Below are positions 13,971 through 22,613 of a DNA stretch of 59,239 bases, piece by piece. Positions within the stretch are counted from its first letter, which is position 1, and each line of letters opens with the position of its first letter. A program made the position numbers and the translations under genes. Source of the stretch: Methanomassiliicoccaceae archaeon. GTDB taxonomy: Archaea; Thermoplasmatota; Thermoplasmata; Methanomassiliicoccales; Methanomethylophilaceae. The notes beneath the pieces are model-generated. The model searched no databases, was not told the DNA's origin, and saw only the letters and a program-made list of their open reading frames with translations. The stretch spans positions 1 to 59,239 of the forward strand of contig PWNH01000089.1 in the NCBI GenBank assembly GCA_003557905.1. The letters are read 5' to 3'.

Positions 13971-15131
13971 TCAGCGGTCAAGCATCTCCTCCAGTTTACC
14001 CCTCAGGACCTTGGCAGGAATATCAGGGATGGAGATGTAGGTAGTCCTTCCTCCGTCAGGGTCGCCCTGTACCTTGGTATGCACAAGGCCAAGGTCGTGG
14101 AGGTCGTTGACATAGTTCCAGAACTGGGTGTGTTTACGGGGGTTCTCACCATATTCCTCGGCGACGACATGATAGGTCTTCTCCGCCCTTCCCGTGTTCA
14201 CATACACATCTTCTTTGAGGCAGCGGGTGATGGAGAGTAGGGTCATCATGCGATGTTTGTCAAGCTGCTCCAGCTTCGACTCCGTTATGGTCGAGTACGT
14301 CAGGGCCTTGGCCTCACGGACGTACTCCGCCTTCACCTCGCCGACCCCGTCCTCCTCTGCCAGCATGGCGGATTTCTCCAGCATCTCTATCGCGAACCTG
14401 GCGTCACCCCATTCAGAGGCGATGTCGGATATGAGGTTCATGGAATCGACCTCAATGGAACCAGGGACCAGGGCCATTTCGGCCCTGCTGTTGACAATGT
14501 CGAAAAGCTCATCCCTGCTGTAACGACCGAAACGTACCGTGTTGGCACGTTTGAATGTGGACATGGATGCCTGGTCCAGACGGTCTATGACGTGCTCCTG
14601 TGAGATCATCATCAAGGACAGCGAGGTGGAGAGGTCGCCCCTCTCCTCGTTGAACCTTGAAAGTTGGTATACAAGGTCATCGGCGCCTTTCTTGAGCAGT
14701 ACGTCCACCTCATCCAATACCACCATCAGCCGCAAACGTCGCTTGTCCACATGGCGTTTCAGTGTACGCAGCATCTCAGAGACCGAGAATCCCCGGTCAG
14801 GATATCCGGGGTCGAAATGCCATATCATGGACAATAGGGCGCTGGATTCAGTGTTGCTCTGCCTACAGTTGACCATCACGTAATCCATGGGGATGCCTTT
14901 TTCGGAGGCATGCCTGAGGATGTCCATACAGAACCTTTTCGCCGTGGCGGTCTTACCGGTCCCGACAGGCCCAATCAGGAAGGCGGATTGCGGAACCCCG
15001 CTCTCCACCACAGGGCGGAAAAGCATGCGCAGGGAACGCATCTGCTCCTCTCGGTGCACCAGCGTCGGGGGGACGTAGTCAAAGGTAAGAACCTTCGGGT
15101 CCCGTATGATCGTCGTCCTTGGATCAAACAT
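13971..15131 (-). CDS. orc1: Orc1/Cdc6 replication initiator
   Basis: AAA+ ATPase that binds replication origins and loads the MCM helicase. The Walker A motif is GPVGTGKTA starting at residue 54 and Walker B is VVLDEVDVL. The sensor segment with SLSLMMISQ follows, and a C-terminal winged-helix domain (about residues 290-386) contains HTQFWNYVNDLHDLGLV. The 386-residue length fits archaeal Orc1/Cdc6. It overlaps the upstream NIF3-like gene by eight bases. Origins often lie next to orc1, but I saw no inverted origin-recognition boxes or long AT-rich unwinding region in the flanking 16090-16199 or 12907-13043 gaps. Confidence 0.93.
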   Translation of the reverse strand: MFDPRTTIIRDPKVLTFDYVPPTLVHREEQMRSLRMLFRPVVESGVPQSAFLIGPVGTGKTATAKRFCMDILRHASEKGIPMDYVMVNCRQSNTESSALLSMIWHFDPGYPDRGFSVSEMLRTLKRHVDKRRLRLMVVLDEVDVLLKKGADDLVYQLSRFNEERGDLSTSLSLMMISQEHVIDRLDQASMSTFKRANTVRFGRYSRDELFDIVNSRAEMALVPGSIEVDSMNLISDIASEWGDARFAIEMLEKSAMLAEEDGVGEVKAEYVREAKALTYSTITESKLEQLDKHRMMTLLSITRCLKEDVYVNTGRAEKTYHVVAEEYGENPRKHTQFWNYVNDLHDLGLVHTKVQGDPDGGRTTYISIPDIPAKVLRGKLEEMLDR

Positions 15132-16089
15132 CTTTGTTCCTGCTCACCCTGAGGAATCCTGAGAAAGGTATCACTTCGACCCCTCCCGCCTCGACCATGT
15201 CAGCCGCCAGATTCATCCCGAGTGAGTCAGAGGACATGTGTCCGGCGACAACCACGTTGATATGGTATTTCTTGCATTCATCAATATGCTTATCGGGGAA
15301 ATGCATCCCGACGACGGTACCAACCCCCGCATCGGCGAGCTTCTCGTAAATCTCAACAGGTCCAGAGGTGCCTCCGGTCATCTTGACCGCCACCTTGCCG
15401 ACACTGGCATCCTTCTTTCCATAGACGATATTGGGCGGCGAGTTGCCACTGGCTGCCAACCTGTACTCCGGAATCTCGAACACCGCATCCACCAGATCCT
15501 TTAGTCTACGCGGGGACTTCTCTTCCAGATATATCTCCATGAACTGCTGGGCAAGGTTGTCGGTGGGCGTATGGGCGTTCATCAGCGGGATCTCCAACAG
15601 ACGGCAGGCATCGACGACCTGATTGTAGTTGGACGCCATCACGGCCCGGGTGACCTCATCGATGCGTTTGGACATCATGCCCTCAGCGATGTTGATGGGT
15701 ATGCCCAATTCGTGATACATGCCCTCTTGCATGGACATGACCTCCGGGAATATCGATCTTCCCTTGCCTATCGGATGGTGTCCGATTATGGCATCTATCC
15801 CATGCCCCTTCTGATTCAGCCTGTCTGTGAGAACCACTTCCCCCGTACCAATGTCTATTCCCCAGATGACCTTCTTCAGATCCGTGTCCGGGTCACCGAA
15901 CGAGAGGCGGCTGTCTGCATAGGGGTTCCAAAGCCTTTCCTGGTCGTAGAACTCCTTCTTGTCCTCATCCATCTTATCGAATTCCGATTTCTGTTTCTCA
16001 AGGCCCTCATCAATCTCATCGCGACCGCGAGGGTCGGATTCGATACCCCTTTCAATTATCATCCGATAGACGTCGATGAGTTTCATCAT
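15124..16089 (-). CDS. NIF3-like metal-binding protein (DUF34)
   Basis: A 321-residue protein of the NIF3/DUF34 family. The visible metal-ligand signatures are GHHPIGKG near the middle and AGHMSSDSLGMN near the C-terminus. The N-terminal 60 residues are charged and helical and are an addition seen in archaeal members. The family is ubiquitous and binds two metal ions; proposed roles include metal insertion or chaperoning and a cyclohydrolase-like fold, and no activity can be assigned. The start is one of two adjacent ATG codons (16089 or 16086). It heads an operon with orc1 and ncsA and diverges from rfcS. Confidence 0.8.
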   Translation of the reverse strand: MMKLIDVYRMIIERGIESDPRGRDEIDEGLEKQKSEFDKMDEDKKEFYDQERLWNPYADSRLSFGDPDTDLKKVIWGIDIGTGEVVLTDRLNQKGHGIDAIIGHHPIGKGRSIFPEVMSMQEGMYHELGIPINIAEGMMSKRIDEVTRAVMASNYNQVVDACRLLEIPLMNAHTPTDNLAQQFMEIYLEEKSPRRLKDLVDAVFEIPEYRLAASGNSPPNIVYGKKDASVGKVAVKMTGGTSGPVEIYEKLADAGVGTVVGMHFPDKHIDECKKYHINVVVAGHMSSDSLGMNLAADMVEAGGVEVIPFSGFLRVSRNKDV

Positions 16090-20932: not shown

Positions 20933-21117
20933 TTATATAGCCGATTGAGGCGGCCAATCATGAATTCCCCTTTTCGATAGTTGCGAGCCCTTTTTTGATT
21001 GTTTTGTTATATACTCTATGAAACCACCTATCTACCAATTTTTAACATTCGTTTATATGGATGTCAATAGATTTCGGTAGCAAAACGAAAGCATTAAAAG
21101 ACAAGCGTTGTTTTCCA

Positions 21118-21195
21118 ATCATCGTCTTCGGACGATCGCCGCCGTTTGGAGGGACGGAGGCAACTGGCTCCAAGCCAGGTCGACGGGAAGGGCAG
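21118..21195 (+). ncRNA. candidate structured leader RNA or small RNA
   Basis: Three stems follow each other in G+C-rich sequence within an AT-rich gap. Hairpin 1 is ATCGTC-TTCG-GACGAT (21121-21136) with a cUUCGg tetraloop. Hairpin 2 is CCGT-loop-ACGG (21142-21157) with loop TTGGAGGG. Hairpin 3 is CTGGC-TCCAA-GCCAG (21164-21178). The loop TCCAA of hairpin 3 is complementary to TTGGA in the loop of hairpin 2, so a kissing-loop or pseudoknot is possible. It lies 50-120 bases before a metallochaperone-like gene cluster on the same strand. It does not match the tRNA, 5S, SRP or RNase P patterns I know, and I cannot assign it to a riboswitch class. Confidence 0.45.
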
Positions 21196-21228
21196 AGATT
21201 GAATGAATAGTTCAGCTTATGCTCTATA

Positions 21229-21242
21229 CTTGTTCGAACAAG
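21229..21242. repeat. 14-base perfect palindrome at a start codon
   Basis: CTTGTTCGAACAAG is a perfect palindrome ending one base before the ATG at 21244. It may be an operator for a dimeric repressor or an RNA hairpin that occludes the start. If it acts as a hairpin, the working start of the small protein could be a later in-frame ATG (21262, 21277 or 21283). Confidence 0.4.
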
Positions 21243-21243
21243 G

Positions 21244-21480
21244 ATGAGAGGTATTCCAGGGATGATAGGTTCAATTATGGAGATGGGAGGCCATTGCGCC
21301 CCTGATATCGGCAAGGTCTATTGCGAGTGCGGAAGCATTGTAGACCTTGACCGTTCATTCATTAATCTAAAACGTAAATTAGGAAAACCTATCGAATGCC
21401 CCACATGTCGCAACAATAGAATCTCCCACGACATTGATGCCTTGGACCGCCACTTCATCGGTGATGATGAAGAGGAATGA
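21244..21480 (+). CDS. small zinc-ribbon-like protein, unknown function
   Basis: A 78-residue acidic-tailed protein, not recognised as a named family. It shows YCECGSIVDLD (C27, C29) and ECPTC (C52, C55), a pattern suited to one metal ion, and ends in FIGDDEEE. The N-terminal 15 residues are methionine-rich and may not be translated, since several in-frame ATG codons lie there. It precedes the CobW/HypB-like GTPase by 72 bases on the same strand and may share its transcript and the upstream leader RNA. Confidence 0.6.
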   Translation: MRGIPGMIGSIMEMGGHCAPDIGKVYCECGSIVDLDRSFINLKRKLGKPIECPTCRNNRISHDIDALDRHFIGDDEEE

Positions 21481-21552
21481 ATCTCTAAAAATTATTAAGT
21501 TAAAGACCAATCTTTAATAACTCTGATTATCAATCTAACCCAAGGTGAGAAA

Positions 21553-22146
21553 TTGCATTTCGTTCTGGTATCCGGTCTATTAGGGGTGGGTAAGACCACT
21601 GTAATCCTGAACATGATGGATGCTCTCTATGAGAGCAAAGGACATCGTATAATGGTCATCGAGAATGACTTCGGGAACAAAGGCATAGACGGGGAGGTCA
21701 TGCGTAAATACGGCATGGACGTCCAAGAACTCAAGGGAGGGTGTATATGCTGTACCCTGAAGACCGGACTGATTGACACCGTTCGGGTTGTCCAGGCCAA
21801 TATGGATCCCGACATAATAATCGTGGAGCCGACGGGAATAGCCGACCCCGAGATAATCATAAATGCGGTCCAGGACTGCTCCGGGATAGAGATTGACCGG
21901 CTCAGCACTATCATAGTGGTCGATGCAGAACGTTTCGCCAAGACCTGGAAGATGTTCGAGAGGCCTCTGAAAAACCAATTGAAGGTCGCAGATATCGTAT
22001 TGGTGAACAAGATAGACACTGTATCCGACGAAGACCTTGACGGCATCAAGGAACGCATCAAGACGTTCGGTTTCAACGGCCCTGTGGAGGCCGTACAGGC
22101 TGACAAAGGTGTGAACATGGGTAAGTTGTTGGAGTTGTTCGAATGA
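21553..22146 (+). CDS. CobW/HypB/UreG-family GTPase, putative metallochaperone
   Basis: A 197-residue SIMIBI-class GTPase domain with Walker A GLLGVGKTT (residues 9-16), IENDFGNKGID as switch region, the metal-binding GGCICC motif (residues 62-67, the CxCC of COG0523 proteins), EPTGIADPE, and guanine-specificity motif NKID. COG0523 and UreG/HypB proteins deliver zinc, cobalt, nickel or related metals to target enzymes using GTP hydrolysis. This one lacks the C-terminal CobW domain, and the following gene may supply that role. The start is TTG 21553 with AGGTGA upstream; no ATG precedes the P-loop. It overlaps the next gene by four bases. Confidence 0.88.
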   Translation: MHFVLVSGLLGVGKTTVILNMMDALYESKGHRIMVIENDFGNKGIDGEVMRKYGMDVQELKGGCICCTLKTGLIDTVRVVQANMDPDIIIVEPTGIADPEIIINAVQDCSGIEIDRLSTIIVVDAERFAKTWKMFERPLKNQLKVADIVLVNKIDTVSDEDLDGIKERIKTFGFNGPVEAVQADKGVNMGKLLELFE

Positions 22147-22613
22147 CCGAGGACCAAGAGTTCATACCCACTCCGCTCGCCGCGGACCTCAAAGGGGTTT
22201 TCTCACCCCCGATGGAAGGAACGGATGCAGTTCAGAAGTTCTCCGACCTCCTGAAGGCCTTGACGCTCGGGGCGGTGGATGTCGGCGCCTGGTCCATAGG
22301 CCATGTCAAGGCTGTGGTGGAGGCAGGACAGGGATTCATATCAATGAGCAGCACCACTGAGGATGGCAACGTCCGTACCAAGGGCGAGTTGTCATCGGTG
22401 GAAGAATGGACGATGACCGTGAACGTTATTGTTTTCGGGCCGGATGTGGAAGACCTTGAGACTATGCTCTTGGAAAAGGTGGAATCCATAATGCCGGGTA
22501 GCAAGGTCAATGTCTATCACGCTGAAGGATGCGACGACCCCGAATGCTTCGATCCCTTCTGCCGCCGTCCCGAACACGTCCACGAGGACGATTGCGACTG
22601 TGACCGTTGCTAA
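22143..22613 (+). CDS. unknown protein with Cys/His metal-binding tail
   Basis: A 156-residue protein I do not recognise. Residues 25-125 look like a compact alpha/beta domain (FSDLLKALTLGAVDVGAWSI, then WTMTVNVIVFGPDVEDLETM). The last 31 residues are packed with possible metal ligands: H126, C130, C135, C140, H145, H147, C151, C153 and C156, mixed with aspartates. The start overlaps the GTPase stop (ATGA), so the two are translationally coupled and probably work together, the tail perhaps storing or handing over a metal. This is inference from the tail and context; the sequence itself carries no catalytic motif. Confidence 0.7.
   Translation: MTEDQEFIPTPLAADLKGVFSPPMEGTDAVQKFSDLLKALTLGAVDVGAWSIGHVKAVVEAGQGFISMSSTTEDGNVRTKGELSSVEEWTMTVNVIVFGPDVEDLETMLLEKVESIMPGSKVNVYHAEGCDDPECFDPFCRRPEHVHEDDCDCDRC

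Follow-up and report, generated by a model that had tools for sequence, protein, structure and literature searches.

Three short genes lying head to tail on one strand of a methanogen genome, the middle one encoding a predicted metal-handling GTPase, raise the question of whether they act together and, if so, in what capacity. They lie in a 59,239-nucleotide stretch of DNA (hereafter the window; contig PWNH01000089.1) from a Methanomassiliicoccaceae archaeon, whose genome comprises 1.56 Mb on 139 contigs. A preliminary description had read the genes, here called S, G and T, as a three-member metallochaperone cassette. An ORF check of the window bore out all three frames on the same strand with their coordinates (Table 1).

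Table 1. Features of the S-G-T locus (window coordinates)
Feature	Position	Strand	Basis or remark
Structured RNA and promoter-like AACGAAAGCATTAAAAG	21084..21228 (RNA about 21116-21228; AACGAAAGCATTAAAAG 21084-21100)	+	upstream of S
S, small zinc-ribbon-like protein	21244..21480, probable start 21262	+	syntenic neighbour
G, putative COG0523/G3E GTPase, 197 aa	21553..22146	+	PF02492, invariant motifs, YjiA structure match
G motifs: P-loop, CxCC, ExxG, NKxD	P-loop about 21574-21597; CxCC 21742-21753	+	intact
T, predicted detached C-terminal GTPase domain, 156 aa	22143..22613	+	linkage, fusions, profile match, AF2 model
GHVK, GHxK signature of the T domain	22299..22310	+	invariance in alignments
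Cys/His tail of T with CxDPxCxDPxC	22518..22610	+	22-orthologue alignment, enrichment, model

G resembles the GTPases of the COG0523/G3E group

The assignment of G to the CobW/HypB-family GTPases with a GGCICC motif is confirmed. The motif is present, and G matches PF02492 with an E-value of 1.5e-39 (135.9 bits against a curated Pfam cut-off of 20.7). In an alignment of 15 relatives the G-motifs and the CxCC site are invariant, with GCxCC, the P-loop and NKxD invariant or nearly so. The nearest solved structure is YjiA (1nij, 8.4e-17). Judged by these features, G belongs to the COG0523/G3E GTPases. Its TTG start codon is supported because relatives carry ATG at the same aligned position. The closest named relatives, with 91% and 77% identity in G, come from two Methanomassiliicoccaceae metagenome bins (L134 and L135).

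Within NCBIfam, G falls far under the equivalog cut-offs. The best match is the CobW-related selenoprotein NF041053, with 103.9 bits against a cut-off of 180. That family, like G, is a standalone GTPase (195 positions), but G encodes cysteines and no selenocysteine. Against the HypB model TIGR00073, G scores 33.1 bits where 121.2 are required.

T corresponds to the C-terminal domain of single-chain GTPases

The preliminary description had also noted that G is devoid of a CobW C-terminal domain. A Pfam scan indeed gives zero CobW_C matches, yet in evolutionary terms a C-terminal domain is encoded nearby, as the third gene. The frames of G and T overlap in the sequence ATGA, as expected from the translational coupling proposed earlier. 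T matches nothing in Pfam, NCBIfam or PHROGs, in agreement with its having been called a member of no recognised family.

We searched with a profile built from standalone T proteins only, and it found the C-terminus of single-chain GTPases. The matches include fused proteins of Nitrososphaeria (L142, 7e-22), Methanomethylicota (L205, 3e-20), Methanolobus (L144, 5e-11) and Methanosarcina (1e-9 to 1e-7, including L150 with 8e-10 and L177 with 2e-8). Weaker matches (3.6e-5 to 3e-4) were obtained for three fused proteins of the same order, one of them encoded in the window's own genome. A profile-profile comparison of standalone T with the fused C-termini yielded an hhalign value of 99.4% (E 4.6e-21). 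Residues G53, H54 and K56 are invariant in 67 standalone T domains, and the same G, H and K are invariant in 17 fused C-termini. Because the fused C-termini match the standalone-T profile and share the invariant GHxK, T is, on profile evidence, a detached C-terminal domain of a COG0523 GTPase. The T-domain family is widespread, though it has no entry in Pfam or NCBIfam.

The AF2 model of T, calculated from the 67-sequence alignment, reaches a pLDDT of 89.2; its strands and helices follow one another as in a ferredoxin-like fold, and the tail is modelled at low confidence. A Foldseek search with this model placed YjiA fourth (E 5.9e-3) among other ferredoxin-like folds. VIA-align returned only common ferredoxin-like matches for T, with Z up to 8.7 and designed proteins first, and we therefore drew no functional inference from it. 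For a model of a fused two-domain protein, YjiA was the best Foldseek match over its full length (354 columns, E 2e-14); the superposition on YjiA has an rmsd of 20 Å, which is too high to fix the domain arrangement. The VIA-align matches of the fused model mostly span the GTPase part only, and YjiA is absent among the 50 best for either model.

T does not classify as CobW_C by sequence. PF07683 (CobW_C) had zero matches in T or in the fused proteins, whereas ordinary COG0523 control proteins in the same scan do match it. An hhalign comparison of T with COG0523 proteins that carry PF07683 gave a weak profile match of 33%, and a PDB sequence search with the T profile returned no match. Membership of T in PF07683 by sequence was dropped in view of the missing Pfam match and the weak profile match. 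The models suggest that T follows the architecture of COG0523 proteins and probably shares their fold class.

The tail of T is enriched in Cys and His and varies between lineages

The last 31 residues of T contain nine Cys/His, as had been counted before, against one in the other 125 (hypergeometric P 1.5e-6), and this enrichment is not due to chance. In an alignment of 22 T orthologues, C130, C135 and C140 of CxDPxCxDPxC are invariant. The type of tail follows lineage: the window's family has a Cys/Asp-rich tail with CxDPxCxDPxC, several others have one that is HxH-rich, and some have none. Orthologues at three loci (L109, L111 and L132) have short tails without Cys/His clusters. The existence of such orthologues means that the family can do without the tail. 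His-rich regions, commonly near the C-terminus, occur in about 40% of COG0523 proteins (PMC2770081). The tails of T resemble these regions; they are rich in Cys in the window's T, and rich in His both in other families and in the fused forms.

Two T paralogues carry very long His/Cys-rich tails (L074, 5443-6237; L124, 3951-5006). One of the two lies near methanol methyltransferase genes, and the tail of L074 repeats a CDDPxC unit.

Such extreme tails look like metal storage, and together with the low-confidence modelling of the tail they would fit a T that is an accessory adaptor or a metallothionein-like metal buffer rather than the missing C-terminal domain of G. We consider this unlikely: T domains are fused to the GTPase in several phyla, and the shared GHxK, together with tail-less members, suggests that the domain is integral and its tail optional.

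G and T form a conserved pair

T was matched in 28 of 102 genomes of the family and in 76 of 147 genomes of the order (E up to 0.01). When all loci are pooled, 103 of the 106 standalone T ORFs directly follow a G on the same strand. Of the three exceptions, two are located at the ends of contigs; in L147, the third, a distance of about 260 bases separates T from G. The search for conserved linkage in other genomes, which had been proposed as a check, is thus strongly positive for the G-T pair. G-T pairs are found at the topA locus, next to mtaB/mtaC and RamA-like genes, next to URO-D and hydantoinase-like genes, and next to mtrA/mtrH. As these are several unrelated chromosomal places, the linkage is more than common gene order. 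One G of the same clade (L140) stands ahead of topA without T.

Distances among G and among T proteins correlate across 88 pairs (Mantel r 0.88; the highest value among permutations was 0.08), which shows co-inheritance rather than contact, with shared descent contributing. Taken together, G and T form a robust two-gene module.

S, the upstream elements and the nickel genes belong to the neighbourhood

The small upstream protein S has no Pfam, NCBIfam or PHROG family. The motifs CEC (C27, C29) and CPTC (C52, C55) named in the preliminary description are present, along with a fifth cysteine at position 18. Alignments with orthologues from within the genus begin only at about residue 5-7, and the conserved ATGATAGG suggests that S starts at 21262 rather than 21244.

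S is found in 90 of 102 family genomes, against 28 of 102 for T. In genera devoid of G-T, it still lies between the NaPRTase/enolase end and topA-nikR. A three-protein unit that includes S, as first proposed, would be in keeping with the gene order at the topA locus, where S precedes G-T in most of the order's families read. We regard it as quite unlikely, since S persists between the same flanks where G-T has been lost, and paralogous G-T pairs elsewhere in genomes occur without S. Thus the pair at the heart of the proposed unit stands, while S falls outside it and was set aside as an obligate member.

The block of enolase, NaPRTase, S, G, T, topA and nikR is found across the order's families, and G-T is therefore ancestral at the topA locus, with probable losses in several genera. 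The window's pair has topA, NaPRTase and enolase as neighbours, with no metal-enzyme gene adjoining it. Elsewhere in the window (15124-16089, minus strand), a diverged DUF34/NIF3-like protein scores 22.2 bits, just under the Pfam cut-off of 23.4. A role as metal chaperone has been put forward for the DUF34/NIF3 family (PMC8469502).

Pfam and NCBIfam annotation confirms that nikR, hypA and hypD lie within 8 kb of G-T. Given this proximity, and because HypB is likewise a G3E GTPase, the pair could deliver nickel to hydrogenase or methyl-CoM reductase as a HypB-like system under NikR. HypB and UreG resemble G in being standalone G3E GTPases that work with separate partner proteins, but G scores below the HypB cut-off and a canonical HypB is encoded elsewhere in the same genome (TIGR00073, 230.9 bits). 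Moreover, the block with nikR and hypA is retained with or without G-T. Because the syntenic block persists without the pair, S, nikR and hypA say nothing about a nickel role, and the hint drawn from them does not hold. The nickel/HypB reading, set aside on account of this synteny and the separate HypB, is very unlikely.

The 14-base palindrome pointed out earlier at 21229-21242 is real but ordinary, as the window holds seven such palindromes, and it is broken already in the closest relatives. An operator at this site was rejected on both grounds, and the missing conservation also argues against a HypB-like system under NikR.

The structured RNA reported upstream of the genes is upheld in part. 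It folds moderately better than shuffled sequences (z about -2.1), and three to four hairpins of modest stability are common to four of six congeners. The promoter-like AACGAAAGCATTAAAAG is invariant save for one base in one relative. The element is recognisable in the genus only, among the loci compared, and precedes S rather than G-T. Rfam searches at gathering and permissive thresholds gave no match for it, returning only a tRNA elsewhere and a chance match. The RNA is a small RNA that lacks annotation or, alternatively, the 5' leader of S.

The window's pair belongs to a clade apart from methyltransferase-linked relatives

Haas et al. (2009) link the archaeal COG0523 subfamily 13 to corrinoid methyltransferase genes (PMC2770081). 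In the openly accessible literature, the COG0523-corrinoid methyltransferase link was found only in that work and in reviews. The same GTPase relatives occur in subfamily 13, and the GHxK C-terminal domain recurs in the fused proteins of Methanosarcinales. Differences are that the Methanosarcinales proteins are single chains adjoining corrinoid methyltransferases, which the window's clade does not adjoin. The identification with subfamily 13 is here inferred from lineage and neighbourhood, not from the alignment of Haas et al.

By analogy, the pair could serve corrinoid (cobalt) or zinc methyltransferases. Such a client would refine the two-subunit explanation given below by naming what is served, and is not an alternative to it. 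Related G-T pairs adjoin MtaB/MtaC, RamA-like, URO-D methyltransferase, MtrA/MtrH and CbiA-like genes. A gene of this set is present at 31 of the 54 named loci that have a T domain and at 4 of the 26 that lack one, counted over genomes that are not independent.

In a tree of 149 GTPase-domain sequences, whose bootstrap is not fully settled and whose root is a midpoint only, the topA-locus G sequences and a few same-order duplicates form one branch with support of 100/99. The Mta-linked, URO-D-linked, fused methanosarcinal and CobW_C-type sequences all fall outside this branch. No corrinoid methyltransferase neighbours were found at the topA locus, and the loci of the window's clade are free of methyltransferase neighbours except for a few duplicates near a RACo-type gene. 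Paralogous G-T pairs in the same genome do have corrinoid methyltransferase neighbours. As the topA-locus clade is separate, the published link holds for the paralogues but, as far as the present evidence goes, does not extend to the window's pair, for which a methyltransferase client is possible but doubtful.

The window's genome encodes several related genes on other contigs. At L066 (607-3365, contig C75), a G-T pair is followed by MtrA-like and MtrH-like genes, which suggests a corrinoid methyltransferase client for that paralogue. L067 (5733-6434, contig C51) is a degenerate COG0523-like GTPase with the P-loop APLGVDRTG and CVSC in place of CxCC; it adjoins carbon monoxide dehydrogenase-like and CooC-like genes, and within the clade of the topA-locus family it forms a long branch. 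At L069 (2893-3704, contig C117), the GTPase is split over two frames, by a frameshift or an assembly error, T is intact, and a URO-D methyltransferase and a hydantoinase-like gene lie alongside.

Discussion

We propose that a single COG0523 enzyme is here divided between G and T, making it a two-subunit metal-insertion GTPase, and we hold this to be likely. The proposal builds on the observed motifs, near-obligate linkage, fusions, fold class, tail conservation and ancestry in the order, from which we infer a heterodimer, metal binding and its specificity, a GTP cycle and a client. In the COG0523 GTPases that have been studied, GTP orders the CxCC site, metal is bound, and hydrolysis releases the metal to a client. 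In the two-subunit enzyme, G would contribute nucleotide binding and the CxCC metal site, and T the ferredoxin-like C-terminal domain that bears the invariant GHxK. The flexible Cys/Asp/His tail of T probably collects metal. Made from overlapping frames, G and T most likely form a heterodimer that would load a transition metal in the GTP state, most likely Zn(II) or Co(II), and GTP hydrolysis would then release it to a client metalloprotein. The preference for zinc or cobalt over nickel is held with low confidence, and is based on the tail chemistry and the neighbourhoods of paralogues. What remains of the role first suggested, metal delivery or storage, is a GTPase that handles metal and is coupled to a partner with a Cys/His tail, without the nickel hint.

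Comparing the pair with characterised COG0523/G3E proteins such as YjiA, CobW and ZigA reveals the same P-loop, CxCC, ExxG and NKxD in G. Also shared is the order of domains, a GTPase and then a ferredoxin-like domain, as are Cys/His-rich stretches that commonly lie near the C-terminus. However, the second domain is here a separate gene, carries GHxK and lacks a detectable PF07683. We found no description of a split COG0523 GTPase in the openly accessible literature.

More tentatively, the GHxK domain may be a modular metal-donor subunit, so far undescribed, in a large COG0523 branch of archaea and clostridia, detached so that the tail chemistry (His-rich, Cys/Asp-rich or none) could evolve separately and set the choice of metal. 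The window's order-wide clade might then serve a not-yet-known client in methyl-reducing methanogens.

COG0523 GTPases rank among the foremost candidates for zinc and cobalt delivery to enzymes, and the role of their variable C-terminal domain is poorly understood. The natural split, together with differing tail chemistry in related species, makes the roles of domain and tail testable by mixing parts. Furthermore, it assigns a family to proteins without family annotation in many methanogens, including those encoded at methanol- and methyl-transfer loci.
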